A stretch of 64,000 bases of DNA from Thermus hydrothermalis (GCF_022760925.1 NZ_JAKTNT010000001.1:1-64000), one strand, 5' to 3'. Shown: positions 15,363 to 54,872, counted from the first letter of the stretch. The notes: generated by a model not told the origin, from the sequence alone. Program-made: numbers and translations.

Positions 15363-15441
15363 CGGCTCCCCGCATTGGAGCGCGTGGCCTAAAGAGGCGG
15401 CTCGGCCTGGCCTCGGCTGGGGACGGGGCTTCCGCCGTGCC

Positions 15442-15521
15442 CTTCCGGATGGCCCCGTCCAGGCCTTGGCCAGGTCTTTGGCCTGCGGTTTAGTGGGAAA
15501 GAGGCGGCGCCTGGAGGCCAC
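15442..15521 (-). mobile_element. Internally deleted tnpB remnant
   Basis: The minus-strand peptide RRLFPTKPQAKDLA matches the TnpB N-terminus seen at 53.2 kb (YRLYPTKPQQKDL), and it runs directly into AKAWTGPSG, which matches the TnpB C-terminus at 52.1 kb (RAWTGPSG). The roughly 340 codons between are missing. This looks like a short non-autonomous derivative. The surrounding bases 15363-15709 contain no gene I can support. Confidence 0.55.
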
Positions 15522-15616
15522 GATGCAAATTCTCCGCCCACCGGGGTGGGGATCGCACCGGGAGCACGTGGGGTAGGAGAGCGTCCCCTCGGGGTTTTGG
15601 GTGCCCGTTGAGTCAT

Positions 15617-15633
15617 GGGGGCACTAAGCCCCC
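15617..15633. terminator. GC hairpin between convergent genes
   Basis: GGGGGC and GCCCCC are separated by five bases, lying between the convergent DUF5666 lipoprotein and DUF4926 genes. There is no T-run, so termination is uncertain. Confidence 0.3.
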
Positions 15634-15709
15634 CACGGCGCATGTGGCTTCGCTGACCCGTGGGTCCCCGGCTGCGGTCCCGCCAGGGGGCCGGGCGGCG
15701 GGCGAGGGC

Positions 15710-15925
15710 TTAGGCGCCCCTGGCCCGGAGGCGGGCGGGCCCCGTGAGGGGGGCCACCTCCGCCTCGGAGAGGTCCAGGAGGGCCAGGGTGTTGCGCTCG
15801 TGGTCCACGAACTCCACCAGGTAACCCCCGTGGGGATATACCTGGACCACGGTGCCCACTTCTCCCGCCTTCAGGCCCCACGCTTCCTGGTCCCACATAA
15901 GAACAACCGAGCCGTGCTCCCCCAT
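15710..15925 (-). CDS. DUF4926 small protein
   Basis: This 71-residue protein matches the DUF4926 pattern: VVLMWDQEAWGLKAGEVGTVV, then VYPHGGYLVEFVDHERNTLALLDLSEAEV. DUF4926 proteins are small beta-barrel-like proteins often paired with a DUF6883-type partner and suspected to be antitoxins. I see no partner upstream. The ATG at 15925 is chosen because the family pattern starts a few residues later and GGAAAGG precedes it. Confidence 0.7.
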   Translation of the reverse strand: MGEHGSVVLMWDQEAWGLKAGEVGTVVQVYPHGGYLVEFVDHERNTLALLDLSEAEVAPLTGPARLRARGA

Positions 15926-16157
15926 CCTTTCCCCTTCCAAGGGTACGCCATCACCCGAAAGGTCCTTCCTCCTAAGCGTACCTGCACGCCTCCTGCCCAG
16001 CGCCCCGTGGGAGCCTCTTAGGACCACCCGCACCCCTTGGCCTTGGAAGCCGGGGGGTCTGGGGCCAAAGCGTATCCCGGGCCCAACAGCTTGCGTGGAC
16101 CAACTCCCCAACCCAAAGGGACCTCCCCGTGGCCATGGACGAGGCCCTGCCCCCTCG

Positions 16158-16189
16158 TTTACGCCCCGTATACGGCCTTTGGCTAGGTT
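16158..16189 (+). promoter_or_regulatory. SARP-type promoter before yceI/cytochrome operon
   Basis: TTTACGC (16158-16164) and TATACGG (16169-16175) are 11 bp apart. After 8 bp comes TAGGTT (16184-16189), identical to the -10 at 13922. The bases TTTACGCCCCG are shared with the 13.9-kb site. GTG at 16211 follows an extended GGAGGAGGTG. Confidence 0.55.
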
Positions 16190-16210
16190 GGAGGGAGGAG
16201 GTGAAAGGAC

Positions 16211-16721
16211 GTGCGGCTTCTTGCCCTCTCGGTTCTCCTGGCCGGCTTGGCGCTTGGCCAGAGGTACAGCGTGACGGGGGAAGCGGTATATAGAGCGCAG
16301 GCACCCTTGGGAAGCTTCCAGGGGGTCAACCGGACCCTTAAGGGAGAGGTGGTCCAAGAGGGGGAGCGCCTCCAGGGCCAAGCCTGCATAGACCTTTCGG
16401 CCTGGGACTCCAAGGAACCCCTTCGCGACCGGCACACCAGGGAGATGTTCCAGGTGGACCGCTACCCACAGGCCTGCCTGAGGCTCCAAGGGGTGGACAG
16501 GGCTAAGGGTCTCGTCCTCGGCACCCTCACCCTCCACGGCGTGGAAAAGCCCGTGGCCTGGCCCGTGAAGCTGAACCAGGAGGGAAAAGGGGTACGCTTC
16601 CAGGGTGCCTTCGCTCTAACTAAGGCTAAGCGACTATGGGCTTAAGGCCCCGAGCTTCATGGGCATGCGGGTCAAGGACGAGGTGTGGGTGGAGGTCCGG
16701 GAGGAGGGAAGGACCCCATGA
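16211..16721 (+). pseudogene. YceI-family protein with a one-base frameshift near the end
   Basis: Starts GTG with a signal peptide (RLLALSVLLAGLALG) and the YceI lipocalin-like pattern (YSVTGEAVYRAQAPLGSFQGVNRTLKGEV, then LTLHGVEKPV). In the starting frame the protein ends early at 16645. In the next frame the expected last strand continues (LSDYGLKAPSFMGMRVKDEVWVEVR) to TGA at 16721, overlapping the cytochrome start as ATGA. The shift is one extra base near 16623-16627. YceI proteins bind polyisoprenoid or similar lipids in the periplasm and often accompany cytochromes. Either the gene was recently broken, losing about 25 residues, or there is a base-call error. Confidence 0.75.
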
Positions 16722-17506
16722 GGAGGCTCTTCCCCTTGCTCCTCTTGGGGCTCGCCCTGGCCTCGGAAGGGGAGCGCTACCTCTACGTCCGCTGGGATGC
16801 GGAGAAGGGGGCGGCGGTCCTTTCCGACGGCACGCCCCTCCCCCCGGGTGTGCGCCTGGTGCCAGGCCAGTACGTGGAGGTGGAGGAAGGCCGTCTCAAG
16901 CCCAAGCGTCAGTGGCAACCGCCCCAAGACCTCGTTCGGACCTTCCAGCCCCAGGGCATGGGCCGGGTGGTGTTCAGCCACGAACGCCACTTCGGCTTCC
17001 TTGGAGCGAAGGGGACCAGTTGCGAAACCTGCCACGCCAGTCTGGACAAGGGCAAGGCCTGGCCGAGCACCGCCCCCAACCCCAGCCTGGAACCCCACGG
17101 CCCCACCTCCCTGGGCCGCTTCTGCGCCACCTGCCACGACGGTAAAAGGCTGGTCCAGCAGATTCCAGGAAGCCGAAGCCCCATAAGGGGGCCCGTCTTC
17201 ACCGCTTTGGGGAAGAAGGGTGCGGCCTCTTGTAACCTCTGCCATACTCCTCGGGACCACGGCCAGGACTTCACCCAAGGGCACGGGGAGGTGGCGGAAC
17301 GCCTAGGGGGGCAAGCCTGCGCCAGCTGCCACCGGGGAGCGGACCAAATAGGCGCCGCAGCGCTCGCCTTGGCCAGGGCCTTCCAAGAGGCACAGCTCGC
17401 CCTAATCCGCAACCCGGACGACAGCCAAGCCTTCAACCAGATCCTGCCGGCCAACTTCTGCGCCTACTGCCATGGGCTGGACGGGAAGGCTTGGCGTGGG
17501 AAATGA
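16718..17506 (+). CDS. Exported pentaheme c-type cytochrome
   Basis: A 262-residue protein with a signal peptide (MRRLFPLLLLGLALAS) and five CxxCH heme-binding motifs beginning at residues 102, 136, 172, 201 and 248. His-rich segments (FSHERHFGF, HGQDFTQGHGEV) provide distal ligands, so the fold is probably of the cytochrome c7/NrfB type. It would carry electrons in the periplasm. It overlaps yceI (ATGA) and is followed by a membrane protein and a two-component system, suggesting a regulated redox unit. The donor and acceptor cannot be deduced. Confidence 0.88.
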   Translation: MRRLFPLLLLGLALASEGERYLYVRWDAEKGAAVLSDGTPLPPGVRLVPGQYVEVEEGRLKPKRQWQPPQDLVRTFQPQGMGRVVFSHERHFGFLGAKGTSCETCHASLDKGKAWPSTAPNPSLEPHGPTSLGRFCATCHDGKRLVQQIPGSRSPIRGPVFTALGKKGAASCNLCHTPRDHGQDFTQGHGEVAERLGGQACASCHRGADQIGAAALALARAFQEAQLALIRNPDDSQAFNQILPANFCAYCHGLDGKAWRGK

Positions 17507-17517
17507 TGGAGGCGACG

Positions 17518-17958
17518 ATGGGAAACGCAAGGACATGGTTGCGCAGGCATCTGCCGGAAGTGTTCGGCCTCTTTGCGCTGATGGGGTTCTTCCTCACCTT
17601 GGCCGAGCTCTTCCTCATGGGCCACGTGGAGGGCGTACAGGTCGTCGCCCCTATAGCCGCCACCCTAGGGGCCTTGGCCGTGGGCCTGGGCCTTCTCCTT
17701 CCCCAAAGCCGGCCCCTGGCGGTAGCCCTGCTCCTTTTGGTGGGGGGCGCTGGCCTGGTGGGGCTTTTGGAGCACCTCGAGGCGAGCCTAGGGGAAGCCC
17801 AAGGGACCCCTCGGGTGGTCCTCGTGGACGAGGAGGGCGAGGCGTGGCCGGGGTGGGAAGGGAAGGAGCAGGAGGGCACGCCCCCGCCCCTCGCCCCCTT
17901 GAGCCTCTCGGGCCTGGGCCTTCTCGGGGCCCTGGCCCTTTGGGTGCGGGAGCCATGA
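17518..17958 (+). CDS. Small integral membrane protein, unknown
   Basis: A 146-residue protein with about four hydrophobic segments (VFGLFALMGFFLTLAELFL, VVAPIAATLGALAVGLGLLL, LAVALLLLVGGAGLVGLLE, LSGLGLLGALALWV) and a short acidic external loop. The ATG at 17518 is preferred because GGAGG lies 5 bases upstream. Two earlier ATGs lack a site. The stop overlaps the response-regulator start (ATGA). Context suggests a membrane partner of the cytochrome or sensor, but no family is recognised. Confidence 0.65.
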   Translation: MGNARTWLRRHLPEVFGLFALMGFFLTLAELFLMGHVEGVQVVAPIAATLGALAVGLGLLLPQSRPLAVALLLLVGGAGLVGLLEHLEASLGEAQGTPRVVLVDEEGEAWPGWEGKEQEGTPPPLAPLSLSGLGLLGALALWVREP

Positions 17959-18611
17959 GGGTGCTCGTGGTGGAGGACGAGCAGGGCATCCTGGAGCCCG
18001 TGGTGGCGGTCCTCCGGAAGGAGCGGTACGAGGCCTCGGGGGTGCGGAGCCTAAAGGAAGCCTGGGAGAAGCTGGCGGAGGGGGAGCCCGACGTCCTGGT
18101 CTTGGACGTGATGCTCCCCGAGGGGGAAGGGGCCGGCTTCCGCTTCGCCGAGGACCTAAGGCAAAGCGGCTACCGGGGAGGAATCCTCTTCCTCACCGCC
18201 CGGGATGCCCTGGAGGACCGCATCCACGGCCTGGAGCTGGGCGGGGATGACTACCTGGTGAAGCCCTTCCACCTTTCCGAGCTGGTGGCCCGGGTGCGGG
18301 CCCTGGCCCGGCGCACCGCCGGCTTCAAGGGGATGATCCTCACCCGGGGGCCCCTGGTGGTGGACTTCGCCCAGCGGCGGGTCACCTACGCCGGCAAGGA
18401 AGTGGCCCTCTCCCCCAAGGCCTTCGCCCTCTTGGAGCTCCTCGCCCTTCACCCGGAGAGGACCTTCACCCGGGAGGAGCTTTTAGAAGGGCTCTTTCCT
18501 GGGGCGGAAAGCGACGCCGTGCTCCGGGTGTACGTGCAGAAGCTCCGGCAATCCCTGGCCCCATGGGTGGTGGAGCGGGTGCCTGGGGGGTATCGGCTGG
18601 GAGAACCATGA
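17955..18611 (+). CDS. OmpR-family response regulator
   Basis: A 218-residue protein. The receiver domain has acidic residues VEDE, the phospho-acceptor Asp in VLVLDVMLP, Thr in FLTARD and Lys in YLVKPF. The C-terminal winged helix (VALSPKAFALLELLALHPERTFTREELLEGLF, then VYVQKLRQ) is of the OmpR/PhoB type. It overlaps both neighbours by four bases and forms a pair with the downstream kinase. Probable targets are the cytochrome and envelope genes next to it. Confidence 0.92.
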   Translation: MRVLVVEDEQGILEPVVAVLRKERYEASGVRSLKEAWEKLAEGEPDVLVLDVMLPEGEGAGFRFAEDLRQSGYRGGILFLTARDALEDRIHGLELGGDDYLVKPFHLSELVARVRALARRTAGFKGMILTRGPLVVDFAQRRVTYAGKEVALSPKAFALLELLALHPERTFTREELLEGLFPGAESDAVLRVYVQKLRQSLAPWVVERVPGGYRLGEP

Positions 18612-19849
18612 CCCTCAAGGGCCGCCTGGCCTGGGCCTTCTTCCTGGTGGCCGCCTGCACGGGCCTCGCCAGCCTCCTCGGGGGCTACGCCGTGTTCTGG
18701 AACCTGGTGGAGCGGGACATCGCCCTGGACCTGGGGGAGGCCGCCTCGAAGGTGCAGAGGGCCCTCGTCCTAACCCCAGAGGGCCCCCGGCTCACTTCCG
18801 CCGAGGCCTTCAGCGGGAGCCACTACGTCTTTGGCTTCCGGCTCCTGGAGGCGGGGACGCCGATCCTGGAGGGGGGCTTTTTCCCCCAGGCGGGGGAGGC
18901 TTGGCGCACCCTAAGCCTTCCCTGGCAGGGCTACCAATTGGAGGTTTACCTGCGCACAGAGGAGTACACCCGCGCCCTAAGGGCTTACGTGCGCGGGGGG
19001 CTTTTGCTCCTCTTTCCCCTTCTGTTCCTGGCGACCCTCTTCGGCTACGGCTTCGCCCGGCTCATCGTCCGGCCCCTGGACGAGCTGGCCCGGGCGGTGG
19101 AGGCGGTTTCCCTCCTCCGGTTTCCCGAACCCCTCGCCCCCGGGCGGGAACGGGAGATCCGGCGCCTGGTCCAGGGCTTTAACCGCATGGCGGAGGCGGT
19201 GCGGGCCGCCTTGGAAAGGGAGCGCCTCTTCACCCGGCACGCCTCCCACGAGCTGAGGAGCCCCCTGGCGGTGATCCGGAGCCAGGTGGAGGCCCTTCAA
19301 GGTGGGCTTCTGCCCTTAAAGCGGGCGCTTCCCCAGCTCGCCCAAAGCGTGGACCGCATGGAGGCCGTGTTGCGGGGGCTCCTCGCCCTGGCCCGGTCCG
19401 AAGGGGCCGACCTGGCCCCGCTAGAGCTCAGCGCCTTTCTCGGGGAGTACCTGGCGGGAGAGGAGGGGGTGAGGGCCAGCCTACAAGGGCCCGCCTGGGT
19501 CCTGGCCCACCCGGCCTTGCTGGAGCGCATCCTGGATAACCTCCTGGAGAACGCCCGCCGCCACGGAGCCCCGCCCGTGGAGGTGCGCCTGGGGGTGCGG
19601 GGGGAGGAGGTCATCCTCGAGGTGCGGGACCACGGGCCCGGGGTGGCACCGGAAGACCTATCCCGGCTTGCGGAGCCCTTCTTCCGGGGACAGATGGCGG
19701 GGGATGGTCTAGGGCTTGGCCTCGCCCTGGCGCAGGAGGCGGCGAGGCGGCTTGGGGGCACCCTGGAGGTGGAAAACGCCCAGCCCGGGCTTCGGGTGCG
19801 GGTCCGGTTGCCGAGGTGGGAGGATGGGGCGGCGGCAGGTTCTCTGTAG
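18608..19849 (+). CDS. Membrane sensor histidine kinase
   Basis: A 413-residue kinase with two transmembrane helices (about residues 7-30 and 127-150) enclosing a periplasmic sensor of about 95 residues. A HAMP-like region follows, then the H-box FTRHASHELRSPLAVIRSQ, N-box DNLLENARRHG, G1 box DHGPGVAPED and G2 box DGLGLGLALAQEAA. All catalytic motifs are intact. It partners the regulator at 17955. The signal is unknown. Confidence 0.92.
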   Translation: MTLKGRLAWAFFLVAACTGLASLLGGYAVFWNLVERDIALDLGEAASKVQRALVLTPEGPRLTSAEAFSGSHYVFGFRLLEAGTPILEGGFFPQAGEAWRTLSLPWQGYQLEVYLRTEEYTRALRAYVRGGLLLLFPLLFLATLFGYGFARLIVRPLDELARAVEAVSLLRFPEPLAPGREREIRRLVQGFNRMAEAVRAALERERLFTRHASHELRSPLAVIRSQVEALQGGLLPLKRALPQLAQSVDRMEAVLRGLLALARSEGADLAPLELSAFLGEYLAGEEGVRASLQGPAWVLAHPALLERILDNLLENARRHGAPPVEVRLGVRGEEVILEVRDHGPGVAPEDLSRLAEPFFRGQMAGDGLGLGLALAQEAARRLGGTLEVENAQPGLRVRVRLPRWEDGAAAGSL

Positions 19850-20363
19850 GTTAGCCCTCTGGCTCCTAGCGGCCATGGGCCTGGCCCTCGCCTCGGGGAG
19901 GGAGGGCAAGGAAGAGAAGGAAAGGAAAAAGGAGAAGGAGGAAAAGGAAAAGCGCCCCCTCTACTACGGACGGGTAGAGGTGGTGGAGGAGGGGCAGCTT
20001 TGGGCAGGGGGCCGGGCCATCCCCTCCGCCTCCCCCCTCCTCCCCTACTTGGCCCCAGGGATGGTGGTGGAGCTGGGCCCAGAGGGCCTTAAGACCCTGG
20101 AACCGGCAAGGTGGGCCTACTACGAGGGACCCGGTGCCCCCTGGGGGCTATCCTTGACCTGGGCCAGGGTCTGGTGGGTGGGCGGGAAGGTTTGGAAGGC
20201 GCTTCCGGGCACCGGGCGGGAGGCCCTCCTCGTGGCCCAATACGCCGAGGGGAAGTGGCGGGCCGTCCCCCCGGGCCTCCGCCTCCCCCGTCCCCCCAGG
20301 GAGGGGTGGTGGCTTCTCCGCCTGGAGGGCCTCGAGGGCGCTCTCGTGCGCTTCCTAAACTAG
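19824..20363 (+). CDS. Exported protein with Lys/Glu-rich linker
   Basis: A 179-residue protein with a signal peptide (RLALWLLAAMGLALAS), then a highly charged Lys/Glu stretch at residues 26-43, then a small beta-rich domain (YYGRVEVVEEGQLWAGG, LAPGMVVELGPEG) that resembles a single DUF5666-like OB unit. It overlaps the kinase end by 26 bases, so it is the last gene of the cytochrome/two-component operon and may modulate the sensor. It converges with the Ehr-like operon, its last four bases overlapping the NuoB-like gene end. Confidence 0.6.
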   Translation: MGRRQVLCRLALWLLAAMGLALASGREGKEEKERKKEKEEKEKRPLYYGRVEVVEEGQLWAGGRAIPSASPLLPYLAPGMVVELGPEGLKTLEPARWAYYEGPGAPWGLSLTWARVWWVGGKVWKALPGTGREALLVAQYAEGKWRAVPPGLRLPRPPREGWWLLRLEGLEGALVRFLN

Positions 20364-21169
20364 CCCCCTTCTGGGGCTTCATCGGGAAGGATCCCTCCCC
20401 GGAGCCGTTGCGCCACCCGGCCCGTGAGGAGCAGGAGGCCAAAGAGGATCGCCCCGGGCCGGGGAGGGTCCCCGGGCACGTACACGTCCACGGGCACCAC
20501 CCGGTCCACCCCGCCCACCACCTCGGGGCTCCCGGCGAACACGCCCCCCGAGATGGCCTCGTTTCCCACCGCCACAACCCCCTTGGGCTCGGGTGTGGCC
20601 TCATAGGTGCGCCAGAGGGCCTGGGCCATGTTGCGGCTCACGGGGCCAGTAACCACCAGGGCATCCGCATGCCGGGGCGAAGCGGCCACGGTAAAGCCGA
20701 AGCGACCCATGTCGTGGAAGGGGTTGGCAAGAAGCGCCACCTCGGAGTCCGCAAGGCCCGTATCCCCGGCGCTCACCTCCCGGAAAGCCAGGGTGGGAAG
20801 GACCAGCTCGGGCCGGGGGGGAGGAGGAGGGCCCGGGTCCAGGAAACCCCGGCTCCTCAGGTCCACCCGCTGCACCAGGTCTTCCCTGCGCCTCACCGCC
20901 ACCGCCAAGGACCGCATCTCCCCCACTGCCCGTGGATAGGCCAGGGCGCACCGGCCGCATCCCACGCACCGTGCAAGGTCAAGGCCGAAGACCCCTTCCT
21001 CTTCAAAGAAGGCGTCGCTCGGGCAGAGTGAAAGGAGGCCTCGTTGCGCTTCCCGGTCAAGCCCTTCGGGCTTCAGGCGTGGCAGGCCGAAGGCGTGCAC
21101 CGGGACCCTCAGGAGATCCTCGAGCTTCCTCGCTAAACGACCGATGCGCAAGCTGTGCCAAAGGCTCAT
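20360..21169 (-). CDS. Ehr-like complex: ferredoxin-NuoB fusion lacking the small-subunit cluster ligands
   Basis: A 269-residue protein equivalent to HyfH plus HyfI. The N-terminal part keeps one [4Fe-4S] site (Cys68, Cys71 and Cys74 in CVGCGRC plus Cys49 in CPSDAF). The rest matches the hydrogenase-4/NuoB small subunit (RFGFTVAASPRHADALVVTGPVSRN, PEPKGVVAVG, GGVDRVVPVDVYVPG), but every cluster ligand of that subunit is gone: the GSCNGC region reads AGDTGLADSE, GACA is GNEA (202-205) and GCPP is GDPP (233-236). Loss of these cysteines is the signature of energy-converting-hydrogenase-related (Ehr) complexes, whose reaction is unknown. It is the last gene of the operon. Confidence 0.85.
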   Translation of the reverse strand: MSLWHSLRIGRLARKLEDLLRVPVHAFGLPRLKPEGLDREAQRGLLSLCPSDAFFEEEGVFGLDLARCVGCGRCALAYPRAVGEMRSLAVAVRRREDLVQRVDLRSRGFLDPGPPPPPRPELVLPTLAFREVSAGDTGLADSEVALLANPFHDMGRFGFTVAASPRHADALVVTGPVSRNMAQALWRTYEATPEPKGVVAVGNEAISGGVFAGSPEVVGGVDRVVPVDVYVPGDPPRPGAILFGLLLLTGRVAQRLRGGILPDEAPEGG

Positions 21170-21177
21170 CTTCCCCC

Positions 21178-22488
21178 CTACAGGTCGTTCCCCGCATAGG
21201 AGAGGTCAAAGGACTTGTTGCAAAGGGGGAAGTCGGGAAGCCCCTCCCCCCGCACCGCAAGCTCCAGGGCCCGCCAGTTTTTGAAGGAAGGGTCCACGCC
21301 CTCCGCCACGTCCACCTGCCCCTCCAGGAGGCGCACGAACCAGAAGACCTCCCCCCTACCCGCCTCCACCCGCGCCATCCCCTCCCCTTCCCCCGGGGGC
21401 GGTTCCCAGGCCAGGGGGCCTTCAGGGAGGCCCTTGAGGAAGCGCAAGGCGAGGTCTAGGGCCGCCACCGCCTCCTCGGCGTATACCTGGGCCCGCGCCA
21501 GAACGTCCCCGCCCTGGCGCACCGCTGGCGCAAAACCCGGGTAGAGGGGGTCGTCCTGGCGCAGGTCGCGCGCCACCCCACTGGCCCGCGCCGTGGGGCC
21601 CACGAAACCTAGGGTTTCCGCCTCCACCCGGCGCACCACGCCCACGTACCGCATCCGGTCCAGCACAGGGGGATGGCGCAAGAGGCGGGGGAGTAGGCGG
21701 GCGAGCTCCCTACGGTAGCTGGCGAGGGCCTCGAGGTCCGCCCGGCCCTCCCGCCCCACCCCGCCCACGCGGACGAAGTTGCGCCCGTACCGGTGGCCGG
21801 TGAGACGGTCCACCCCCGCCTGCAGGAGGGCGCGGATCCGCCCCACCTGGGTGGCCCCGTAGGCGTAACCGATGTCGGTGAAAAGCCCCGCCAGGCGCCC
21901 CAAGTGGCCAAAGGCCCGCTCCAGCTCCAACGCCGCGCGCCGAAGAGCCTGGGCCCGGGGAGGGGCCGCCCGCCCGAGGGCCCTTTCCCAGGCCTCGGCG
22001 AAGGCCAAGGCGTGGGCCACCGGCTCGCTCCCTGCCCGCTCCACCAAGAGTAGGGCCCGCTCGGGACCGGCCCTGCGCAAAAGGGTAAGAAGGCCCCGGT
22101 GCTGGTATCCGAGACGGATCTCCAGGTGAACGATGCTCTCCCCGAGCACGCTGAAGCGGAAGTGGCCCGGTTCGATGATCCCGGCGTGGACGGGTCCCAC
22201 CGGCACCTCGTGCAGTTCGGCAAAGCGCCGGAAGGTGTAGGGAAGGTCGTGGCGCCGCAGGGGCTTCAAGTCCGGATGCCCGTCCACCTCCAGGCCCCGC
22301 TCCCATAGGGCGCGCTCAAACCAGTCCAGGGCAGGGAACTCGGCTGCCAGGCTCGGGAACCGCCCCCCACCCCCGTAGCGGTAGACCCGAAGCGTCCCTT
22401 CCACCTCCGCCACCAAGGCCACCCCATCCCCATAGGGGTACAGGGCCACCGGCCGACCCGACCGCAACGCCTCCCTCACCTCGTCCAC
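21178..22488 (-). CDS. Ehr-like complex: NuoCD/HyfG-type large subunit without NiFe ligands
   Basis: A 436-residue fusion with a NuoC-like N-terminus (residues 1-85) and a NuoD/HyfG-like remainder (GPVHAGIIEPGHFRFSVLGE, IRLGYQHRG, DIGYAYGATQVGRIR). Both CxxC pairs that hold the NiFe centre in hydrogenases are missing: the first site reads ERAGSEPVAH (150-159) and the C-terminal site reads SFDLSYAGNDL (426-436). The protein therefore cannot be a NiFe hydrogenase, and the pattern agrees with Ehr complexes. Overlap with the membrane subunit gene upstream (13 bases) shows one operon. Confidence 0.87.
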   Translation of the reverse strand: MDEVREALRSGRPVALYPYGDGVALVAEVEGTLRVYRYGGGGRFPSLAAEFPALDWFERALWERGLEVDGHPDLKPLRRHDLPYTFRRFAELHEVPVGPVHAGIIEPGHFRFSVLGESIVHLEIRLGYQHRGLLTLLRRAGPERALLLVERAGSEPVAHALAFAEAWERALGRAAPPRAQALRRAALELERAFGHLGRLAGLFTDIGYAYGATQVGRIRALLQAGVDRLTGHRYGRNFVRVGGVGREGRADLEALASYRRELARLLPRLLRHPPVLDRMRYVGVVRRVEAETLGFVGPTARASGVARDLRQDDPLYPGFAPAVRQGGDVLARAQVYAEEAVAALDLALRFLKGLPEGPLAWEPPPGEGEGMARVEAGRGEVFWFVRLLEGQVDVAEGVDPSFKNWRALELAVRGEGLPDFPLCNKSFDLSYAGNDL

Positions 22489-23822
22489 AGCACCGCCTCC
22501 ACTGCCTTAAGTAGCGCCACCGGGGGGAATAGTCCGAGGAAGAGAAGGGCGCCGAGCAAAAGCCAAAGGGGGGCCCACGGCAGGCCCCGGGCCTTGGGCG
22601 GCTGCCCGGGACCGAAGCCCATCCGGGTTACGGCCGGAAGCAACCCGGCAAAGGCAAGCCCGAGTCCGAGGAGGTAGAGGAGACCCAGGACAGGCCACCG
22701 CCACGCCGCCGTCACCGCCTGGACCTCGGCGTAAAAGAGGGGGAAGGGCGGGAGCCCCCCAAGGGCCAAAAAGGCCAGGACCAGGGGCACGCCGAGGGCG
22801 GGGAGGCCCAGGAAGAGCCCCCCCACCCGCCCCACCTCCCGGGCATGGGTGAGGGCGTACACCCCGCTCGCCCCGAGGAAGGCGAGGGTCTTGCTCAGGG
22901 AGTGGGCCAGGGTGTGGAAGAGGGCGAGCCAGGGCAGTCCGAGGCCCAGCGCAAAGAGGGCAAGCCCCATGTGCTCCACGCTGGAATAGGCGAGGAGCCG
23001 CTTGTACTCCTTCTGGCCATAGAGGAGGAGCCCCGCCGCCAAAAGGCTCAATAGGCCAAAGAAGAGGAGAAGGCCCTGGACGAAGGGGAAGAGTCCCGCC
23101 GCCTGGGCTAGGGCGGCGTAGCGCAACAGGGCGTAGAAAGCCACATTCAAAAGGGTTCCAGAAAGCAAGGCGGAAGCGGGCCCTGGGGCCTCGGCGTGGG
23201 CATCGGGAAGCCAGGTGTGGAGGGGGAAAAGGCCCACCTTGGTCCCGAAGCCCACGAGCAAGAAGGCGTAGGCCACCTTGAACCCCTCCGGGTTCACGGA
23301 GGCCATGAGCGACCGGGCCCGCCCCCAGTCCAAGGTGGCTCCCCCCAGGAGGGCGTAGACCAGGATGACGCCCAAAAGCCCGAAGGCGATGCCCACGCTC
23401 CCCAGCATCAGGTACTTCCAGGTGGCCTCGAGGGCCCTGGCCCCGCCCCTGTGGTAGACAAGGAGGGCGGAGGCCAATGTGCTCCCCTCTACGAAGATCC
23501 AGAGGACCCCGAGGTTGTGGGCCAGGTAGGCCCCGTGGGCGGCCAAGAGGAAGAGGGCGCCGGCCCAATAGAAGCGCCAGGCTTCCTCCTTTGGGAAGTA
23601 CCCGAGGGCGAACCGGGCCACCAGGGCGTACAGCAAATCGGTGAGTACGAGGTAGAAAAGGCCCACCGCATCCAGCCGAAACGGGCCCGACGCCTGGCCC
23701 AAGAGGGCCAGGGAAAGAAGCGCCGCCCCTAAGGGCACGAGCTGGGAAAGGAGGGCCAGGCGGCCCGCCTCCCGCCGGCCCAGGAGCGCCAGGAGGGGGA
23801 GGAGAAGGAGCAGGTAAAGCAC
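22476..23822 (-). CDS. Ehr-like complex: antiporter-like membrane subunit (HyfF/NuoN type)
   Basis: A 448-residue protein with about 13-14 transmembrane helices of the Mrp antiporter family. Conserved features include the Glu in WIFVEGSTLASAL, the Lys in GFGTKVGLFPLHTWLPDAHAEAPGPASALLSG, and the Lys/His region LLAYSSVEHMGLALFALG with HTLAHSLSKTLAFLGASG. These residues form the proton path in complex I and group 4 hydrogenases, so ion pumping is plausible even though the redox centres are altered. Confidence 0.88.
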   Translation of the reverse strand: MLYLLLLLPLLALLGRREAGRLALLSQLVPLGAALLSLALLGQASGPFRLDAVGLFYLVLTDLLYALVARFALGYFPKEEAWRFYWAGALFLLAAHGAYLAHNLGVLWIFVEGSTLASALLVYHRGGARALEATWKYLMLGSVGIAFGLLGVILVYALLGGATLDWGRARSLMASVNPEGFKVAYAFLLVGFGTKVGLFPLHTWLPDAHAEAPGPASALLSGTLLNVAFYALLRYAALAQAAGLFPFVQGLLLFFGLLSLLAAGLLLYGQKEYKRLLAYSSVEHMGLALFALGLGLPWLALFHTLAHSLSKTLAFLGASGVYALTHAREVGRVGGLFLGLPALGVPLVLAFLALGGLPPFPLFYAEVQAVTAAWRWPVLGLLYLLGLGLAFAGLLPAVTRMGFGPGQPPKARGLPWAPLWLLLGALLFLGLFPPVALLKAVEAVLWTR

Positions 23823-23825
23823 CCC

Positions 23826-24458
23826 TCACCCCCTCAGGGCCCGCATCCGGGCGGTGTCCAGATGCCCCAGCTCTCCCCGGATGCGGAAGAGGAGAACGCC
23901 CGCCAGGAATACGGCGGCGAAGGCGTCCAGGGCCACGCCCAGCTCCACGAAGAGGGGCAGGCCATGGCTCTCCGAGAGGGCGAGGAGGAAGACCCCGTTC
24001 TCCAGGGCCAGGAACCCCAGTACCTGGCTGATGGCCTTCTTCCGGACCACCATGGAGAGCGCGCCCAAGAGGACCAGGCTCAGGGCCACCGGCACCCCTT
24101 CGGGGAGCGGAGCCCCGGGAAGAATGAACACCCCGCCCACGCGGAAGGCCAGGGCGGTGAGGGCCCCCGCCAGGGCCAAGGTGAGAAAGACGGAGAGGTA
24201 GCCCTCCACCTCGTGGCTCACCTCGAGGCGGTCCAGAAGCCAGAAGAGGTAAACCGGTATGGCAACCCCCTTGAGGAGGAAAAGAGCGAGCCCCGCCAAA
24301 ACGAAGTGGAGTTCCCCATGGGCCAATCCAAAGGACACCAGGGCCAAGAGGATGTTCTGTAGGGCGTAAAGCCGGATGATGGCATCCAGGCTCCGCCGAC
24401 TCACCATGAGAAATCCCGTGGCCAACACCGCAAGGACCAGCACGTTCACCGTAGCCAT
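23826..24458 (-). CDS. Ehr-like complex: HyfE-type membrane subunit
   Basis: This 210-residue, almost wholly hydrophobic protein has six or seven helices. The pattern RLYALQNILLALVSFGLA and LGFLALENGVFLLALSESHGLPLFVELGVALDAF (Glu in LALEN and FVELGVALD) matches HyfE, a NuoK-related subunit fused to an extra region. The downstream antiporter-like gene starts only 3 bases after the stop. Confidence 0.85.
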   Translation of the reverse strand: MATVNVLVLAVLATGFLMVSRRSLDAIIRLYALQNILLALVSFGLAHGELHFVLAGLALFLLKGVAIPVYLFWLLDRLEVSHEVEGYLSVFLTLALAGALTALAFRVGGVFILPGAPLPEGVPVALSLVLLGALSMVVRKKAISQVLGFLALENGVFLLALSESHGLPLFVELGVALDAFAAVFLAGVLLFRIRGELGHLDTARMRALRG

Positions 24459-25300
24459 ATCGCCCCCAAAAGCGCCAGCGCCCCAAACAGGGTGTTATAG
24501 GAAAGAAAGTCGGGGAGCCGCAGATAGCGGAGTTTCACGCCATAGGTTTCCAGGTAGGCGAGGACCACCGCCCACACCCCTACCAACCCCAAGAAGACGC
24601 ATAGCCGCGGCCCCGGCAGGAGGAGGGCCATGAGGCCAGCGTAGAAGAGCATCTTGGCCGAGGCCGCCAGTTCGTATAGGCCGAGGAGGGGGCCGCCGTG
24701 GTCCAGGAGCTGGGCCTCGTGGATCATGGTCAACTCCAGGTGCGTGGCGGGGTCGTCCACCGGCATCCGCGCCCCCTCCGCCAGGAAGGCCACCGCCAAG
24801 GAGGCGAGGACCAGGACCACCACCAGGGCATGCTCCCCGTTCAGGACCGCCAGACCCTGGAGGCTACCCCCCTTCCCCACGGCCGCCGCAGCCGCCAAGG
24901 CCATGAGCGTTCCCGGCTCCGCCAGTAGGGTAACCACGCCCTCCCGGTAGCTACCCTGGGCTCCAAAGGCGCTCCCGGCGTCCAAGGCCGCCAGCATCTG
25001 GAAGAAGCGGCCCAGGTTTACAAGGTAGACAGCCAACAGGAAGTCTCCGGGTAAGGCCAATCCTGGGAGGATGGGGAGGAGGCTCACCGCCAGGGTGGTC
25101 CCCAGAAGGGCCACGATGGGGCCAAGGAGAAAGGCGGGAGAGCTAGGCCATGGACGCACCCAAGCCTTGCGCCATAGCTTAGAGAGGTTCCGGTACTCCA
25201 GGAAAGGGCTCGCCCCCTGCCGGTGCGTGAGCCTCGCCTTGAGCCACTTCACGCTTCCCGTAAAGAGGGGGGCTAGGAGGAGGATTAGGACCGCCGTCAT
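24446..25300 (-). CDS. Ehr-like complex: HyfC/NuoH-type membrane anchor
   Basis: A 284-residue subunit with about eight helices. The NuoH signatures are SPFLEYRNLSKLWRKAW near the N-terminus and EGARMPVDDPATHLELTMIHEA in the middle, the latter forming the acidic funnel that couples the redox arm to the membrane arm. I chose the ATG at 25300, which overlaps the stop of the upstream gene as ATGA. A longer start five codons earlier would lack such coupling. Confidence 0.88.
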   Translation of the reverse strand: MTAVLILLLAPLFTGSVKWLKARLTHRQGASPFLEYRNLSKLWRKAWVRPWPSSPAFLLGPIVALLGTTLAVSLLPILPGLALPGDFLLAVYLVNLGRFFQMLAALDAGSAFGAQGSYREGVVTLLAEPGTLMALAAAAAVGKGGSLQGLAVLNGEHALVVVLVLASLAVAFLAEGARMPVDDPATHLELTMIHEAQLLDHGGPLLGLYELAASAKMLFYAGLMALLLPGPRLCVFLGLVGVWAVVLAYLETYGVKLRYLRLPDFLSYNTLFGALALLGAIWLR

Positions 25301-26958
25301 CGCAACACCACCCAAAGAACGGCCACAAGGGTGAGGAGTTGGAGGAGCAGGTAGAGGTGGATGCTCCCCGACTGGAGCCCCTGGAACGCCCGAGCGAGGC
25401 GGGCGTAGCTGCGGCCCACTCCGGCATACGTGTTGGCGAGGGGCTCTTCCAGAAGAGGCTTATCGCCCACCCAGAGGCGGAGGAAAGGGAATAGGCCCAA
25501 GGCGGGGGCGGCGAATCCTAGGCCGTTGGGTTGCATCCTGGGCTCCAGCTGCCCATAGCCGCAGTCCCAGGTGCCGTAGTCCCGGTGGGGCCGGGCGAGG
25601 AGGTGGCGGTAGAGGGGGTACGCCAACGCCACGAGAAGGAAAAGCAGGATCCCGTTGAGGTAGAAGGAAGCCCGAAGGGGCCCAAGCGCCAAGCCCGGGA
25701 AGAACGCAAGGGCGAGCAAGGCCACCACAAGGAAACCCAGGCCCTGGCGCATGCCCCGCCCCAGGTGGACCTCCACCCTGGCGCGGGGCAGGCCCAGGAA
25801 GGCGAGGCCGAAGAGGCGGACATAAAAGTAGAGGGCGAGGGCCCCCACCAGGGCCAAGACGCCCACCGCCAGAGGCAGAAGGCCCGGCGCCCCAAGGAAA
25901 CCCCGGTACAGGGTCCACTCCGCCAGGAAAAGGGGCCCGGGCGGTAACCCCGCCCCCACGCCCATCCCCAGAAGGACCAAGGCGCCTAAAACGGGTTCCG
26001 AACGCCACAGACCCCCAAGGCGGGATAGACGTCGCTCCGGCAAGGCCCCCGCCGCCAAGAAGAGGAGCCCCTTGAAGAGCGCATGGGCCAATTGGTGCAG
26101 GAAAAAGGCGTGGAGAAAGAGGGGCGTCTGGGTCAGGAAGTAGGCCCCGAGCGCCGCCTGCATGAGGCCAAGGTTCTCCACGCTGGAGTAGGCCAGGGCA
26201 CCCTTCACGTCCTCCTCGCCCAAGCCCCGTACCAGAGCGTATACGCCCCCCGAAAGCCCCAAGACCACAAGGGCCCAACCGGCCCAACTGGGAGGTGGGC
26301 CGAACCAGAACGGGGCCTGGTACAAGCCGTAAAGCCCAAGCTTGGTCATGGCCGAGGAGAGGAGGGCGGAAACCGGGCTAAGGGCCACGGGGTGGGCCAG
26401 GGGAAGCCAAGGGTGCAAGGGAAAGAGGGCAGCCTTCACCCCAAATCCCAGCAAAAGCCCCGCCCATAGCCATTCCCTAGGAAGGGTTCCCTGGCCCAGA
26501 AAGGCCAGGTAGAGCCCCGCCGCCCCCAGTCGGCTCGCCAGGAAGAAGGCGCGGGCCCCCGCCTCCGCCTTGGGGCCCTCCAGAGCGATGAGGAGGTAGC
26601 CGAGAAGGGCCATGCCCTCCCAGAGGAACAGGAAGGGAAACCCCGGGGGGGCCACCGCAACCCCCGCCATGCTCCCGAGGAAGAGGGGCACCAGGAAGCC
26701 ATAGACCCTCGCCGTCCTGGGGTGATGGGCGAGGTAAGCGGGGAGATAGGGGGCGAGGGCCAGGGTGAGGAGGCCAAGGAGCGCAAGGAAGAAGCCCCCC
26801 GCCTGAGCGTTGTGCCACCAGGCCAGCCCTCCCCCACCGAGCCAGAGGGCCCCCACCGCCCCAAGAGCCAGGCCGTAAGCGTGGCCCTTCGGATCCCTTA
26901 GCCCTAAGAGGCTCGCTCCGAGCAAGGCGGGCCACGCCCCGAGGAGCCAGGCGCTCAC
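25297..26958 (-). CDS. Ehr-like complex: HyfB/NuoL-type antiporter-like subunit
   Basis: A 553-residue protein with about 14-16 transmembrane helices. Motifs include FPFLFLWEGMALLGYLLIALE, LGFGVKAALFPLHPWLPLAHPVALSPVSALLSSAMTKLG, LAYSSVENLGL and HALFKGLLFLAAGA. The C-terminal GTWDCGYG segment is typical of HyfB. It is first in the complex operon and overlaps the ArsR gene by four bases (ATGA). It likely forms part of the ion-translocating arm. Confidence 0.88.
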   Translation of the reverse strand: MSAWLLGAWPALLGASLLGLRDPKGHAYGLALGAVGALWLGGGGLAWWHNAQAGGFFLALLGLLTLALAPYLPAYLAHHPRTARVYGFLVPLFLGSMAGVAVAPPGFPFLFLWEGMALLGYLLIALEGPKAEAGARAFFLASRLGAAGLYLAFLGQGTLPREWLWAGLLLGFGVKAALFPLHPWLPLAHPVALSPVSALLSSAMTKLGLYGLYQAPFWFGPPPSWAGWALVVLGLSGGVYALVRGLGEEDVKGALAYSSVENLGLMQAALGAYFLTQTPLFLHAFFLHQLAHALFKGLLFLAAGALPERRLSRLGGLWRSEPVLGALVLLGMGVGAGLPPGPLFLAEWTLYRGFLGAPGLLPLAVGVLALVGALALYFYVRLFGLAFLGLPRARVEVHLGRGMRQGLGFLVVALLALAFFPGLALGPLRASFYLNGILLFLLVALAYPLYRHLLARPHRDYGTWDCGYGQLEPRMQPNGLGFAAPALGLFPFLRLWVGDKPLLEEPLANTYAGVGRSYARLARAFQGLQSGSIHLYLLLQLLTLVAVLWVVLR

Positions 26959-27284
26959 ATCCCCTCCTCGAGGGCCTGAAGGCGCGCCCGCTCCGCCTGC
27001 AGGTGGCGCTCGAAGATGCGCCGCCCCAGGTCCAAGAAGGCGTAGACCTCGGAGTCTTTGGTGCGGTAGTAAGCGAGGGCACCTTCCCGCCTCACCTCCA
27101 CCAACCCTCGCTCACGCAGAAAAGCCAGCTGCCGGGACACGGCCGACTGCTCCACGCGAAGCTCCTTTTGTAAAGCGGTGACGCTCTTCTCCCCCTCCCG
27201 CAAGGCGTCCAGGATGGCTAGCCGCAAGGGGTGGGCCAAGGCCTTGAAGAACTCCGCCTTGTAGCGGTGCAGGGCGCTCGGCAT
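26955..27284 (-). CDS. ArsR-family regulator of the Ehr-like operon
   Basis: A 109-residue winged-helix repressor (FFKALAHPLRLAILDALREG, LRVEQSAVSRQLAFLRERGLVEVRREG, AYYRTKD). It contains no cysteine, so it is not a thiol-dependent metal sensor of the ArsR/CadC type. The C-terminal helix extends through FERHLQAERARLQALEEG and probably dimerises. The ATG at 27284 has AGGAG upstream. It heads the operon, and a perfect palindrome 18 bases before the start is its likely operator. Confidence 0.88.
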   Translation of the reverse strand: MPSALHRYKAEFFKALAHPLRLAILDALREGEKSVTALQKELRVEQSAVSRQLAFLRERGLVEVRREGALAYYRTKDSEVYAFLDLGRRIFERHLQAERARLQALEEGM

Positions 27285-27301: not shown

Positions 27302-27319
27302 TATGGCAATATTGCCATA
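27302..27319. promoter_or_regulatory. ArsR operator, perfect 18-bp palindrome
   Basis: Half-site TATGGCAAT is followed by its exact complement. It stands out as an AT-rich symmetric site in GC-rich DNA, directly upstream of the ArsR RBS. ArsR proteins bind such inverted repeats and usually repress themselves and the following genes. Confidence 0.7.
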
Positions 27320-27496
27320 TGTGGTCATGGTACCGTGCTAACGGCGCGCCGTCAACCCAAGGCGCTTGCACATCCCGCTAGGGGCGGTGTGCCCCATCTG
27401 GGGGCCACGACCCCGTCGCCCAAGCCCGGCACCCCTACCACCTGGCAGAAGCGCCAAGCGTAGTCCCCGGAGGCCTTTCCCACCGTTCCGAGGCCG

Positions 27497-52054: not shown

Positions 52055-53250
52055 TGACGACTCCTCGGACTAAAGTCCGAGGCTTCTCGGTTCAAGATAC
52101 AGCTATCCCTGTATCTTTCCCCGAAGGCCCCGTCCAGGCCCGAGCCAAGATGTTCCGCGCAGCGGCCACATCCCTGTGAAGCGGCGTCCCGCAGGATGAA
52201 CAAACAAACTCCCTCACCCACAGGGGCTTTTTCTCCCTGTGGCCGCACACCGGACAGTCCTGGCTCGTGTATTTGGGGTCTACCCTTATGACTCGCCTAC
52301 CAGCCTCCTCCGCTTTGTAGGCGAGGATTTGCAAAAACTGCGCCCAACCGGCATCGTGTACGCCCTTGGCTGTGTGGCTACGAGCTAAGCCAAGAACGTT
52401 CAGGTCTTCGTGGACGATAGTCCCATAGCGGTTAACAAGCCTCCTCGCCACCTTGTGGTGGAAGTCCAACCTTTGCCTAGCTACCTTCCGGTGTAGCTTG
52501 GCAAACTCTTCCTTGGCCTTCAGGTAGCGACAGCTCCCCTTCCCTTTACGAGAGAGCTCCCTCTGCTTCCTAGCCAGCCTCTCCTGGGTCTTCTGGTAGT
52601 ACCGAGGGGCTTCTATCTTTTCCCCCTCCGAGGTGATGAGGAAGTGGGGGTTGGTCCCCAGGTCAAGGCCCACCGCCTCCCTAGACGGGGGAAGCGGTTT
52701 GGGGTCTACCTCACACACAAAGACGATGTACCATTCGTCCCCTTCTCTTTTGATTGTGGCGGTCTTGATTTTCCCTTCAAGCGGGCGGTGCATCTTGACC
52801 TTAACCGAACCAATCCCGTGAAGAAGAACCCGCTTCCCGCCCTCCTGGACTTTGATCCCGGTGGCGTAGGCCTGGGGGAAGGTGAAGGCGTCGTAGCGTC
52901 CCTTTCCCTTGAACCGGGGGTAGCCGGCTTTACCCTTTCTGGCTTTTAGGCGGCGGAAGAAGCCCTTGAAGGCTCGGTCTACTCTCTTAAGAACGTCTTG
53001 CAGGACCTGGGAGTGGACCCTATTTGTACTCCGGCAGGTCGGCTCTTATCTCTGGGAGCCACCTCATTTGTTCGTAGAGGGAAAGGCTTTTCTTCGCTTT
53101 CCTATGTGCCATCCTCCGTTCTTGGAGGGCGGCGTTGTAGAGCTGGCGGCAGAGCTCCAGGGTGCGCTCCAGGTCCTTTTGCTGGGGCTTGGTGGGGTAG
53201 AGGCGGTATTTGAAGGCTTTACGTGCCACGTGCCATCACAATAGCGCATC
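52055..53250 (-). mobile_element. IS200/IS605-type element carrying only tnpB (IS1341-like)
   Basis: The right end is marked by the hairpin CCTCGGACT-AA-AGTCCGAGG (52063-52082) with GTCAC beyond it. The left end lies near the CACGTGCCATCACAATAGC region at about 53225-53250. There is no Y1 transposase gene, so movement would need a partner elsewhere. It is inserted in the CARF gene. An omega-RNA-like transcript is expected across the tnpB 3' end and hairpin on the minus strand. Exact ends are approximate. Confidence 0.7.
52092..53229 (-). pseudogene. tnpB: TnpB RNA-guided nuclease gene with one frameshift
   Basis: Read as one gene this is about 379 residues. The N-terminus KAFKYRLYPTKPQQKDLERTL is in one frame to a TAG at 53022-53020. 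One inserted base (the T in ACAAATAGGG) shifts the frame, after which RVHSQVLQDVLKRVDRAFKGFF continues to the end. All nuclease residues are intact: RuvC-I Asp in VGLDLGTNPHF, RuvC-II Glu in IVHEDLNVLG, zinc finger CPVCG and CSSCG, RuvC-III Asp in HRDVAAARNI. The lesion is thus recent. Confidence 0.85.
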
Positions 53251-53336
53251 CTCCGCTTGTCCTGCTATGTGCACCTTCGACGGGCGTGGGGGAGTTTATG
53301 TATCCCCGGCTCGGGAACTGGGGGATTATCGCTTCC

Positions 53337-53453
53337 CTACGCCGCCCCCTCTTTTCTGTAAAGGGCCTGGGAGTTCCCGCCCGCAGCCACCGCCTCCTTG
53401 TACCTGGCCCACGCCTCTTGCAACGCCTTCCACCGTTCCTGCTCTTGGAGCAT
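53337..53453 (-). CDS. Possible 38-residue helical protein
   Basis: MLQEQERWKALQEAWARYKE continues to an AYRKEGAA-like end. It has a TATAAG -10 seven bases ahead of the ATG, which would give a leaderless transcript antisense to the repA leader. It could be a small regulator of replication or noise. No family is recognised. Confidence 0.3.
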   Translation of the reverse strand: MLQEQERWKALQEAWARYKEAVAAGGNSQALYRKEGAA

Positions 53454-53489
53454 GGAAACCCTTATACCACAAGGCCCCCCTCCGGTAGA

Positions 53490-54872
53490 ATGGACCGGAA
53501 CATGGCCGCAAGCCGCCCTTCCAAGAAGGAGGTCCTGGCCCGGGCGCAGCACCTGGACGAGGCCAACGTGGCCCGCCTTGGGCTCATCTCCATCCAGGAG
53601 CGCATCCCCGAGGGCTACTCCTCTTGGGAAGAGGAGTTTGAGTTCCTGGGCAAGCCGGTGAAGCTGGCCTGCTACGCCAGCGAAAAGGTGGGGGGCGTGC
53701 CCCACGGCTTGGACAACGAGGTTTCCTTGGCCCTCATCGCCCTTTACTTCAACGCCGGAAGCCCCGAGGACGGCACCTTCACCGCCACCCCTTACCAGAT
53801 CCTGAAGCTCATGGGCCTGGACACCTCGGGCTACTACTACCAGGCCCTCAAGGAGAGCCTCATGCGCCTCACCACCGCCACTTACGTCCTCTCAGAGGCC
53901 TGGCGGGCGGATGGGCGCTGGCAGAGCGTCACCTTCCGCTACATAGAGAAGCTGGAGTACACCTCTTCCGCCGAGGGCAAGCTGGACCGGGCCAGCGTCT
54001 TGCGCATCACTCTGGCCAAGGAAATCGTGCGCTCGCTAAAGCAAAACTACGTGAAGCCCATTGACATTGAGTTCATGGCGAGCCTCCGCCGCCCCTTGAG
54101 CCGGGCCCTGTACCGGCTTTTGGACGCCCAGCGGTTTTCCCCGGAGAACCCGGCCCCCCTCACCCGGTTTGAGGTGAACCTCATGGAGTGGGCCGCCGCC
54201 TGCAAGATCGTCCACAAGCGGCCCGACAAGGTGCGGCGCACCCTCGAGCCCGCCCACGAGGAGCTCATAGAGCGCCGCTACCTTCAGTCCGTGGAATACA
54301 TCGGCCGGGGCCAGAACCAGACCATCGTCTACGTCTTCGGCGAGGAGGCGGGCGGGGTCCCAGATATGGAGGCGGTGGAGCTCCTGATGGCGGAGGGCCT
54401 TTCCTTCACCAGCGCCTATTCCCTCGCCCGCCGCTACCCCTTGGCCCACATCAAGGAGCGCTTGGAGCGGTACCGGAACATCCTGGCCTCCGGGTACAAA
54501 CCCAAGAACAATCTGGGCTTCCTGGTGGACGTGATCCGGGACGAAAGCGGCAAGTACGCCCGCGCCCTCCCCCCCGCCTCCGCCCGCAGGGTCCAGGCCA
54601 AGGTGGAGGAGGAGGAGGCCCGCCGCATAGAGGAAGAGGCGGAAAGGGAGTGGCAGAACATGCCCAAGGAGGCCCAGGTGCGCCGGGCGGTGCAGGTGGC
54701 CCAGCTCCTTTTGCGTTCCCGCCTTTCCGTGGGCGACCTCGAGGACCTCACCCGCCTCATGGAGGCGGGGGTGCTTGAGCCGCGGCGGGTGGTGGAGGAG
54801 CTCAAGGAGGCGGCGTCCCGGGGGACTTTGGAGGAATGGGTCCAAAGTTTCCGCATGGGGCTGGGGGAGTAG
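53490..54872 (+). CDS. repA: Plasmid replication initiator protein (RepA type)
   Basis: A 460-residue protein starting at ATG (a second ATG four codons later is possible). Residues 30-330 have tandem winged helices typical of replication initiators (GSPEDGTFTATPYQILKLMG, YYYQALKESLMRLTTATY, RPLSRALYRLLDAQRF, AAACKIVHKRPDKVRRTLEPAHEELIERRYL). A charged coiled coil (KVEEEEARRIEEEAEREWQ) precedes the C-terminus. It should bind the iterons immediately downstream (54876-55097). There is no ATPase motif. It is the key evidence that this DNA is a plasmid. Confidence 0.8.
   Translation: MDRNMAASRPSKKEVLARAQHLDEANVARLGLISIQERIPEGYSSWEEEFEFLGKPVKLACYASEKVGGVPHGLDNEVSLALIALYFNAGSPEDGTFTATPYQILKLMGLDTSGYYYQALKESLMRLTTATYVLSEAWRADGRWQSVTFRYIEKLEYTSSAEGKLDRASVLRITLAKEIVRSLKQNYVKPIDIEFMASLRRPLSRALYRLLDAQRFSPENPAPLTRFEVNLMEWAAACKIVHKRPDKVRRTLEPAHEELIERRYLQSVEYIGRGQNQTIVYVFGEEAGGVPDMEAVELLMAEGLSFTSAYSLARRYPLAHIKERLERYRNILASGYKPKNNLGFLVDVIRDESGKYARALPPASARRVQAKVEEEEARRIEEEAEREWQNMPKEAQVRRAVQVAQLLLRSRLSVGDLEDLTRLMEAGVLEPRRVVEELKEAASRGTLEEWVQSFRMGLGE

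Follow-up and report, generated by a model that had tools for sequence, protein, structure and literature searches.

What can a complex with the architecture of an energy-converting hydrogenase do when the ligands of its catalytic metals and of the adjoining iron-sulphur cluster have been lost? This question is raised by an operon in a 64,000-nucleotide stretch of DNA from Thermus hydrothermalis (NZ_JAKTNT010000001.1:1-64000), the whole of which is hereafter called the window.

The operon and its metal ligands

The operon is transcribed from the minus strand in the order ArsR, HyfB, HyfC, HyfE, HyfF, large subunit, and small subunit, and ends at position 20360 (Table 1). According to Pfam and NCBIfam, HyfB and HyfF are NuoL/M-like, HyfC is NuoH-like, HyfE is HyfE-like, the large subunit is NuoD-like (Complex1_49kDa), and the small subunit is NuoB-like (Oxidored_q6) with weak additional 4Fe-4S matches. 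The antiporter-like, NuoH-like, and HyfE-like membrane subunits of Ehr operons are all encoded, and HyfA and HyfD are absent.

Table 1. Features of the operon and its upstream region in the window
Feature	Position	Strand	Remarks
Small subunit (EhrS)	20360..21169	-	Ferredoxin-like domain fused to NuoB/HycG-like domain
Large subunit (EhrL)	21178..22488	-	NuoC remnant and NuoD/HycE-like domain; NiFe cysteines missing
HyfF-like antiporter subunit	22476..23822	-	TM5 Glu, TM7 Lys, HxxxHxxxK, and TM12 Glu intact
HyfE-like membrane subunit	23826..24458	-	Family match
HyfC/NuoH-like membrane subunit	24446..25315	-	E178, R181, D185, H190, E192, H197, E198, and others intact
HyfB-like antiporter subunit (553 aa)	25297..26958	-	TM5 Glu, TM7 Lys, TM8 Lys, and TM12 Glu intact
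ArsR/SmtB-family regulator	26955..27284	-	Start MPSALHRY; 4-bp overlap with hyfB
Putative ArsR operator, perfect 18-bp palindrome TATGGCAATATTGCCATA	27302..27319	n/a	Single genome match at up to 3 mismatches
Promoter-like TTGACG-17-TACCAT	27327..27355	-	Directly upstream of palindrome; consensus match only

In the alignment of the large subunit with Escherichia coli HycE (7z0s), DRVCGICGFAH is replaced by ERAGSEPVAH and SLDPCYSCTD by SFDLSYAGND, and the C-terminus of EhrL (SYAGNDL) matches the C-terminal CYSCTD segment of HycE. All four NiFe-binding cysteines characteristic of group 4 [NiFe] hydrogenases are missing. In the small subunit, the N2-type motifs (A)GxCxxCE (AGxCNGCELE), GxCA (GxCAIS), and PGCPP are changed to AGDTGLADSE, GNEAIS, and PGDPP, respectively, i.e. 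all four ligands that hold N2 in the NuoB subunit of complex I are gone. The remaining Cys49, Cys68, Cys71, and Cys74 correspond to C4, C5, C6, and C7 of the eight-cysteine ferredoxin domain of Variovorax and form a full ligand set for exactly one cluster; the ligands of the second ferredoxin cluster (C1-C3 and C8) have all been lost. Of 79 fused-type small subunits, 78 have the same four cysteines (cluster-II) intact, and these alignments indicate that the single-cluster point is more general than the earlier note on this DNA had it. That note had described an intact HyfB, C, E, F, large and small subunit gene order at 20360-26958, replacement of both large-subunit CxxC sites, disappearance of every small-subunit cluster cysteine with the fold retained, and one remaining ferredoxin-type cluster; the open reading frames, coordinates, alignments, and predicted model bear out each of these points. 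No match to HypD was found in the genome, the E. coli control being positive, so that formation of a NiFe site is improbable.

Confident AlphaFold models were obtained from Ehr alignments, with a mean pLDDT of 89.5 for the small and 91.0 for the large subunit. Their best structural matches are HycG (Z 20; rmsd 1.6-2.0 Å over 140-142 residues) and HycE (Z 42; rmsd 2.2 Å over 432 residues) of 7z0s/7z0t, and the fold is thus predicted to be preserved despite the ligand loss.

In the membrane arm, the TM5 Glu, TM7 Lys, HxxxHxxxK motif, and TM12 Glu are found in both HyfF and HyfB, the latter having the TM8 Lys as well. These ion-path residues are conserved across approximately 100 HyfF and 100 HyfB sequences, including the Methanosarcina copy, in which a few residues of HyfF are exchanged (e.g. 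Lys for Glu in TM12), and a set of charged positions in HyfC is >95% conserved. Mrp-type cation/proton antiporters, which resemble the function proposed below, share homologous antiporter subunits and the ion-path Glu and Lys residues, but they have no NuoB/NuoD-like peripheral arm, and the MrpA-G gene set is not that of the Thermus locus.

Placement, conservation, and control

A maximum-likelihood tree of 116 large subunits was constructed (quick search, SH-aLRT support only). The Ehr sequences group together with a support of 90 (99 with the long-branch row L133 included) and adjoin HycE/HyfG (98), apart from the Ech-like hydrogenases and complex I. The Deinococcota (Thermaceae) copies form one clade within Ehr (100). 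The Ehr assignment of the earlier note, which had suggested placing the large subunit among group 4 hydrogenases, complex I, and Ehr, agrees with both motifs and tree, the subunit falling in Ehr and outside the NiFe hydrogenases. A functional group 4 hydrogenase is ruled out by the motifs, the tree, and the HypD search, and the Thermus complex is an Ehr by all published sequence criteria tested.

In the available parts of the literature, Ehr is defined by the loss of the large-subunit CxxC motifs (PMC6349859, PMC7304191, PMC10284858, PMC4378227) and its function is called unknown (PMC10284858, PMC4378227). The same parts of these four papers were found to contain no mention of a small-subunit cluster loss, which may have been noticed earlier elsewhere. 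The statement of the earlier note that such losses are already known from Ehr sequences accordingly stands for the NiFe ligands, the absence of which defines Ehr in those parts, but not for the small subunit, where loss is atypical and the cluster is kept in 66 of 79 sequences from outside Deinococcota. Since most sampled Ehr keep the small-subunit cluster, the Thermus form is to be regarded as atypical, derived, and redox-disconnected.

Other Ehr, such as that of Geobacter (GSU0739-0745), share with the Thermus complex the subunit set, the loss of both CxxC sites, the C-terminal NKSF-LSY-G-DL pattern, and the tree position. They differ in the first large-subunit motif (GDT in Ehr, GSEP in Thermus), and most sampled Ehr retain the N2-type cluster and many have two ferredoxin clusters, whereas the Thermus complex has one ferredoxin cluster alone. 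By tree and fold, the nearest characterized relatives are the E. coli formate hydrogenlyase and hydrogenase-4 (HycB-G and HyfA-I; 7z0s), which have homologues of HyfB, C, E, and F; compared with these, the Thermus system is devoid of the NiFe site, the N2 cluster, HyfA, and HyfD, its genome yielded no HypD, and its locus is without a formate dehydrogenase. The complex I (Nqo/Nuo) of the same genome is built of homologous NuoB, C, D, H, L, and M modules but keeps N2 and the electron-input modules.

The large subunit is present in 14 of 27 Thermus genomes (78-100% identity), which also carry a normal complex I large-subunit gene, approximately 29% identical to it, and further copies of the operon occur in other Deinococcota. 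Twenty Deinococcota loci, including two from Allomeiothermus silvanus, were aligned. In all 20 copies, the seven genes are present in one order, the N2 and NiFe cysteines are missing, and the four ferredoxin cysteines are kept. Resequencing, which the earlier note had considered might restore the cysteines, can hardly be expected to do so, as identical losses in every aligned copy rule out sequencing error. Within Thermus (13 genomes), pairwise omega values are 0.10 for ArsR, 0.25 for HyfB, 0.17 for HyfC, 0.08 for HyfE, 0.19 for HyfF, 0.155 for the large subunit, and 0.164 for the small subunit. The former N2 loop, with a pn/ps of 0.09, is the most tightly constrained of the small-subunit regions tested. 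The operon is under strong purifying selection. In one Thermus genome (L157), the hyfB frame is shortened to 354 aa and the end of hyfF is altered, which may reflect a draft error or early decay.

The plasmid location given in the earlier note fits the T. hydrothermalis contig, the window containing an RPA-type replication initiator and ParB (53223-54872 and 58084-58959), but in 12 other Thermus genomes (L151-L162) the operon occupies one common site, lying on contigs of 2.05 and 2.45 Mb in two of them. The plasmid location is therefore particular to the T. hydrothermalis lineage, and a plasmid-specific system is ruled out. At the common site, a class-V aminotransferase gene begins 6-13 bp downstream of the small-subunit gene, whereas in non-Thermus Thermaceae (L165, L168, L166, and L013) the small-subunit gene is followed by that of a small, conserved CCPxC-motif protein. 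A Variovorax plasmid (L015:4731-12015 and 15427-21254) carries two different adjoining hydrogenase-4-like operons. Positions 16685-20363 of the window contain genes for a pentahaem cytochrome c, a small membrane protein, a response regulator, a histidine kinase, and a protein that looks secreted, all convergent with the Ehr operon; of the other Deinococcota loci in the comparison, only that of the same species (L150) shares this group. The cytochrome and two-component genes (16685-19849) were rejected as redox partners on the ground that the other loci, L150 excepted, have none. The operon itself yielded no gene for a redox partner, and no molybdopterin gene, which would have pointed to a conserved formate dehydrogenase partner, was seen among the selected neighbours scanned in the examined regions.

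The ArsR protein (109 aa) contains no cysteines and hence lacks the Cys metal-binding site of ArsR/SmtB sensors. Its best solved match is Rv0081 of Mycobacterium tuberculosis (6jmi; E 9e-15), reportedly a negative self-regulator that also regulates rv0082-rv0087 (PMC5484546, PMC6901956) and a member of a hypoxia-induced regulon (PMC6177252). In M. tuberculosis (Rv0081-Rv0087), as in Thermus, an ArsR-subfamily regulator adjoins a hydrogenase-like operon (annotated HycD, HycP, HycQ, and HycE); compared by annotation, the gene order differs, Rv0082 ('probable oxidoreductase') being first, the place taken by the small subunit in Rhodococcus L014. In other Deinococcota loci, an ATAT...ATAT inverted repeat lies at the place of the palindrome, and ArsR is co-inherited with the operon, with the palindrome conserved at its promoter. 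From the 4-bp overlap with hyfB and this conserved palindrome, we infer that ArsR controls the operon, as the earlier note had assumed. By analogy with Rv0081, ArsR most likely binds the palindrome and would repress the operon until a non-metal signal is received. In Acidobacteria (L034), Rokubacteria (L074), and L085, a related ArsR gene is located close to Ehr; a wide ArsR-Ehr linkage was rejected, as ArsR is not adjacent in most of the closest 80 of at least 576 GTDB loci.

Small-subunit cluster loss across Ehr

The GTDB sample comprises the closest 80 of at least 576 Ehr loci, and the frequencies given here hold for that sample. Among 79 small subunits from outside Deinococcota, the N2-type cysteines are complete in 66 and partly or wholly missing in 12, and one is cut by a contig end. 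The four-cysteine site, common in Ehr but outside the definition in the available parts of the published accounts, is lacking in the Thermus small subunit. Mapped on the tree, N2-ligand loss takes approximately six changes, at least four of which are forced by supported branches, suggesting that many independent losses. No N2 ligand remains in the Thermaceae and their kin, in L085, or in Methanosarcina and a Dehalococcoidales genome, where the positions read D-T-D-N; a Bacteroidales group has D-C-D-N, and two Opitutia show partial loss. D, D, and N thus occupy the same three ligand positions in two separate lineages. As each Cys-to-Asp or Cys-to-Asn step takes two base changes, these are not the easiest mutations.

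In Methanosarcina (L051, 3586-10876) and the Dehalococcoidales genome (L052, 52-4301), the small subunit has no ferredoxin domain and the large subunit no CxxC. No ferredoxin motif was found in a plausible nearby gene of either locus, the hyfB end of L052 lying off the contig, and hence no cluster ligand set was found in the complex. The ligand-free form is present in 10 Methanosarcinales genomes (including L204-L213), with large- and small-subunit genes adjacent; a related form, approximately 54% identical, has none of the four cysteines missing in the ten copies examined.

The second NiFe-cysteine position is occupied by Glu in both Thermaceae and the Methanosarcina/Dehalococcoidales group, the Thermaceae case hinging on a one-residue deletion placed just upstream. 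In N2-intact sequences, this position is Thr, Ser, Asn, Ala, or Met, and never Glu (0/67). The Glu appears from these alignments to have arisen independently in the two N2-free clades. The N2-free L085 has Thr here, so the link between Glu and N2 loss is not absolute.

Possible functions of the complex

We give about an even chance to the reading that the Thermus complex descends from an energy-converting hydrogenase and works as a redox-uncoupled cation/proton transporter. Such transport is favoured by the intact channels, the strong selection, the lack of a partner gene at the locus, and the parallel lineages free of cluster ligands. The peripheral arm would have the shape of that of formate hydrogenlyase, with electron transfer to the former active site no longer possible, and the complex would act as an antiporter or a proton valve. 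A conformational wave running through HyfC into HyfF and HyfB would be driven or gated not by the arrival of electrons but by a protonation or ligand-binding event in the altered catalytic cavity, and the single [4Fe-4S] cluster would have a structural role or serve as a redox sensor. Cation-for-proton exchange would require no chemical substrate. Counting against the transporter reading, the near-invariance of the retained cluster in fused-type Ehr suggests a redox role there, and the N2-free L085 is without the active-site Glu. In Geobacter sulfurreducens, moreover, formate goes with higher levels of the Ehr subunits (PMC7894505), which points to redox work for N2-keeping Ehr; the Geobacter-group small subunits sampled have N2 kept.

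The formate effect (PMC7894505), the near-invariant cluster-II ligands, and the formate dehydrogenase-Ehr complexes proposed in PMC6349859 would also fit a complex that is still an oxidoreductase, in which a partner feeds the single ferredoxin cluster and electrons pass, bypassing N2, to a substrate at the small/large-subunit interface or to another carrier. This appears rather unlikely, as the N2 ligands are all gone and the loop that carried them is under tight conservation as altered, no partner gene was found at the locus, and the Methanosarcina and Dehalococcoidales forms yielded no cluster ligands. Moreover, the ferredoxin-type cluster, N2, and the cavity are so spaced in complex I that removal of N2 leaves a gap exceeding the usual tunnelling limit of approximately 14 Å, and the step to the cavity should do so here.

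Still less probable is a redox-gated channel, with the isolated [4Fe-4S] cluster as a sensor of cellular redox state or oxygen that gates the antiporter arm, electrons being a signal and not a fuel. Retention of one complete cluster while the others were lost, the intact channels, and the membership of the related Rv0081 in a hypoxia-induced regulon (PMC6177252) are consistent with such gating, but some Ehr have no ferredoxin domain. Lastly, a decaying, functionless plasmid-borne relic, which the several ligand losses, the plasmid setting in the T. hydrothermalis strain, and the shortened or altered hyfB/hyfF of L157 might suggest, is scarcely credible: it is contradicted by omega values of 0.08-0.25 in all seven genes, by which decay is ruled out, as well as by the ordered seven genes of the 20 aligned copies and the conserved promoter palindrome.

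Extending the transporter reading to the family, we suggest tentatively, and with somewhat less than even confidence, that Ehr complexes repeatedly abandoned redox chemistry to become redox-free ion transporters on the complex I fold, with one isolated cluster left in Thermaceae and no redox cofactor in the Methanosarcina/Dehalococcoidales form, acidic residues having replaced ligands of both cluster and active site, partly convergently. In complex I, the way in which electron flow through the peripheral arm drives the pumping of protons by the membrane arm remains a matter of debate, and natural relatives in which the channels and fold are kept and the electron path is cut or removed would set these two halves apart. 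Thermus, a tractable thermophile, offers a solved complex I with which to compare them. If the suggestion is true, the widespread Ehr family would gain a testable function, namely ion transport without redox chemistry.
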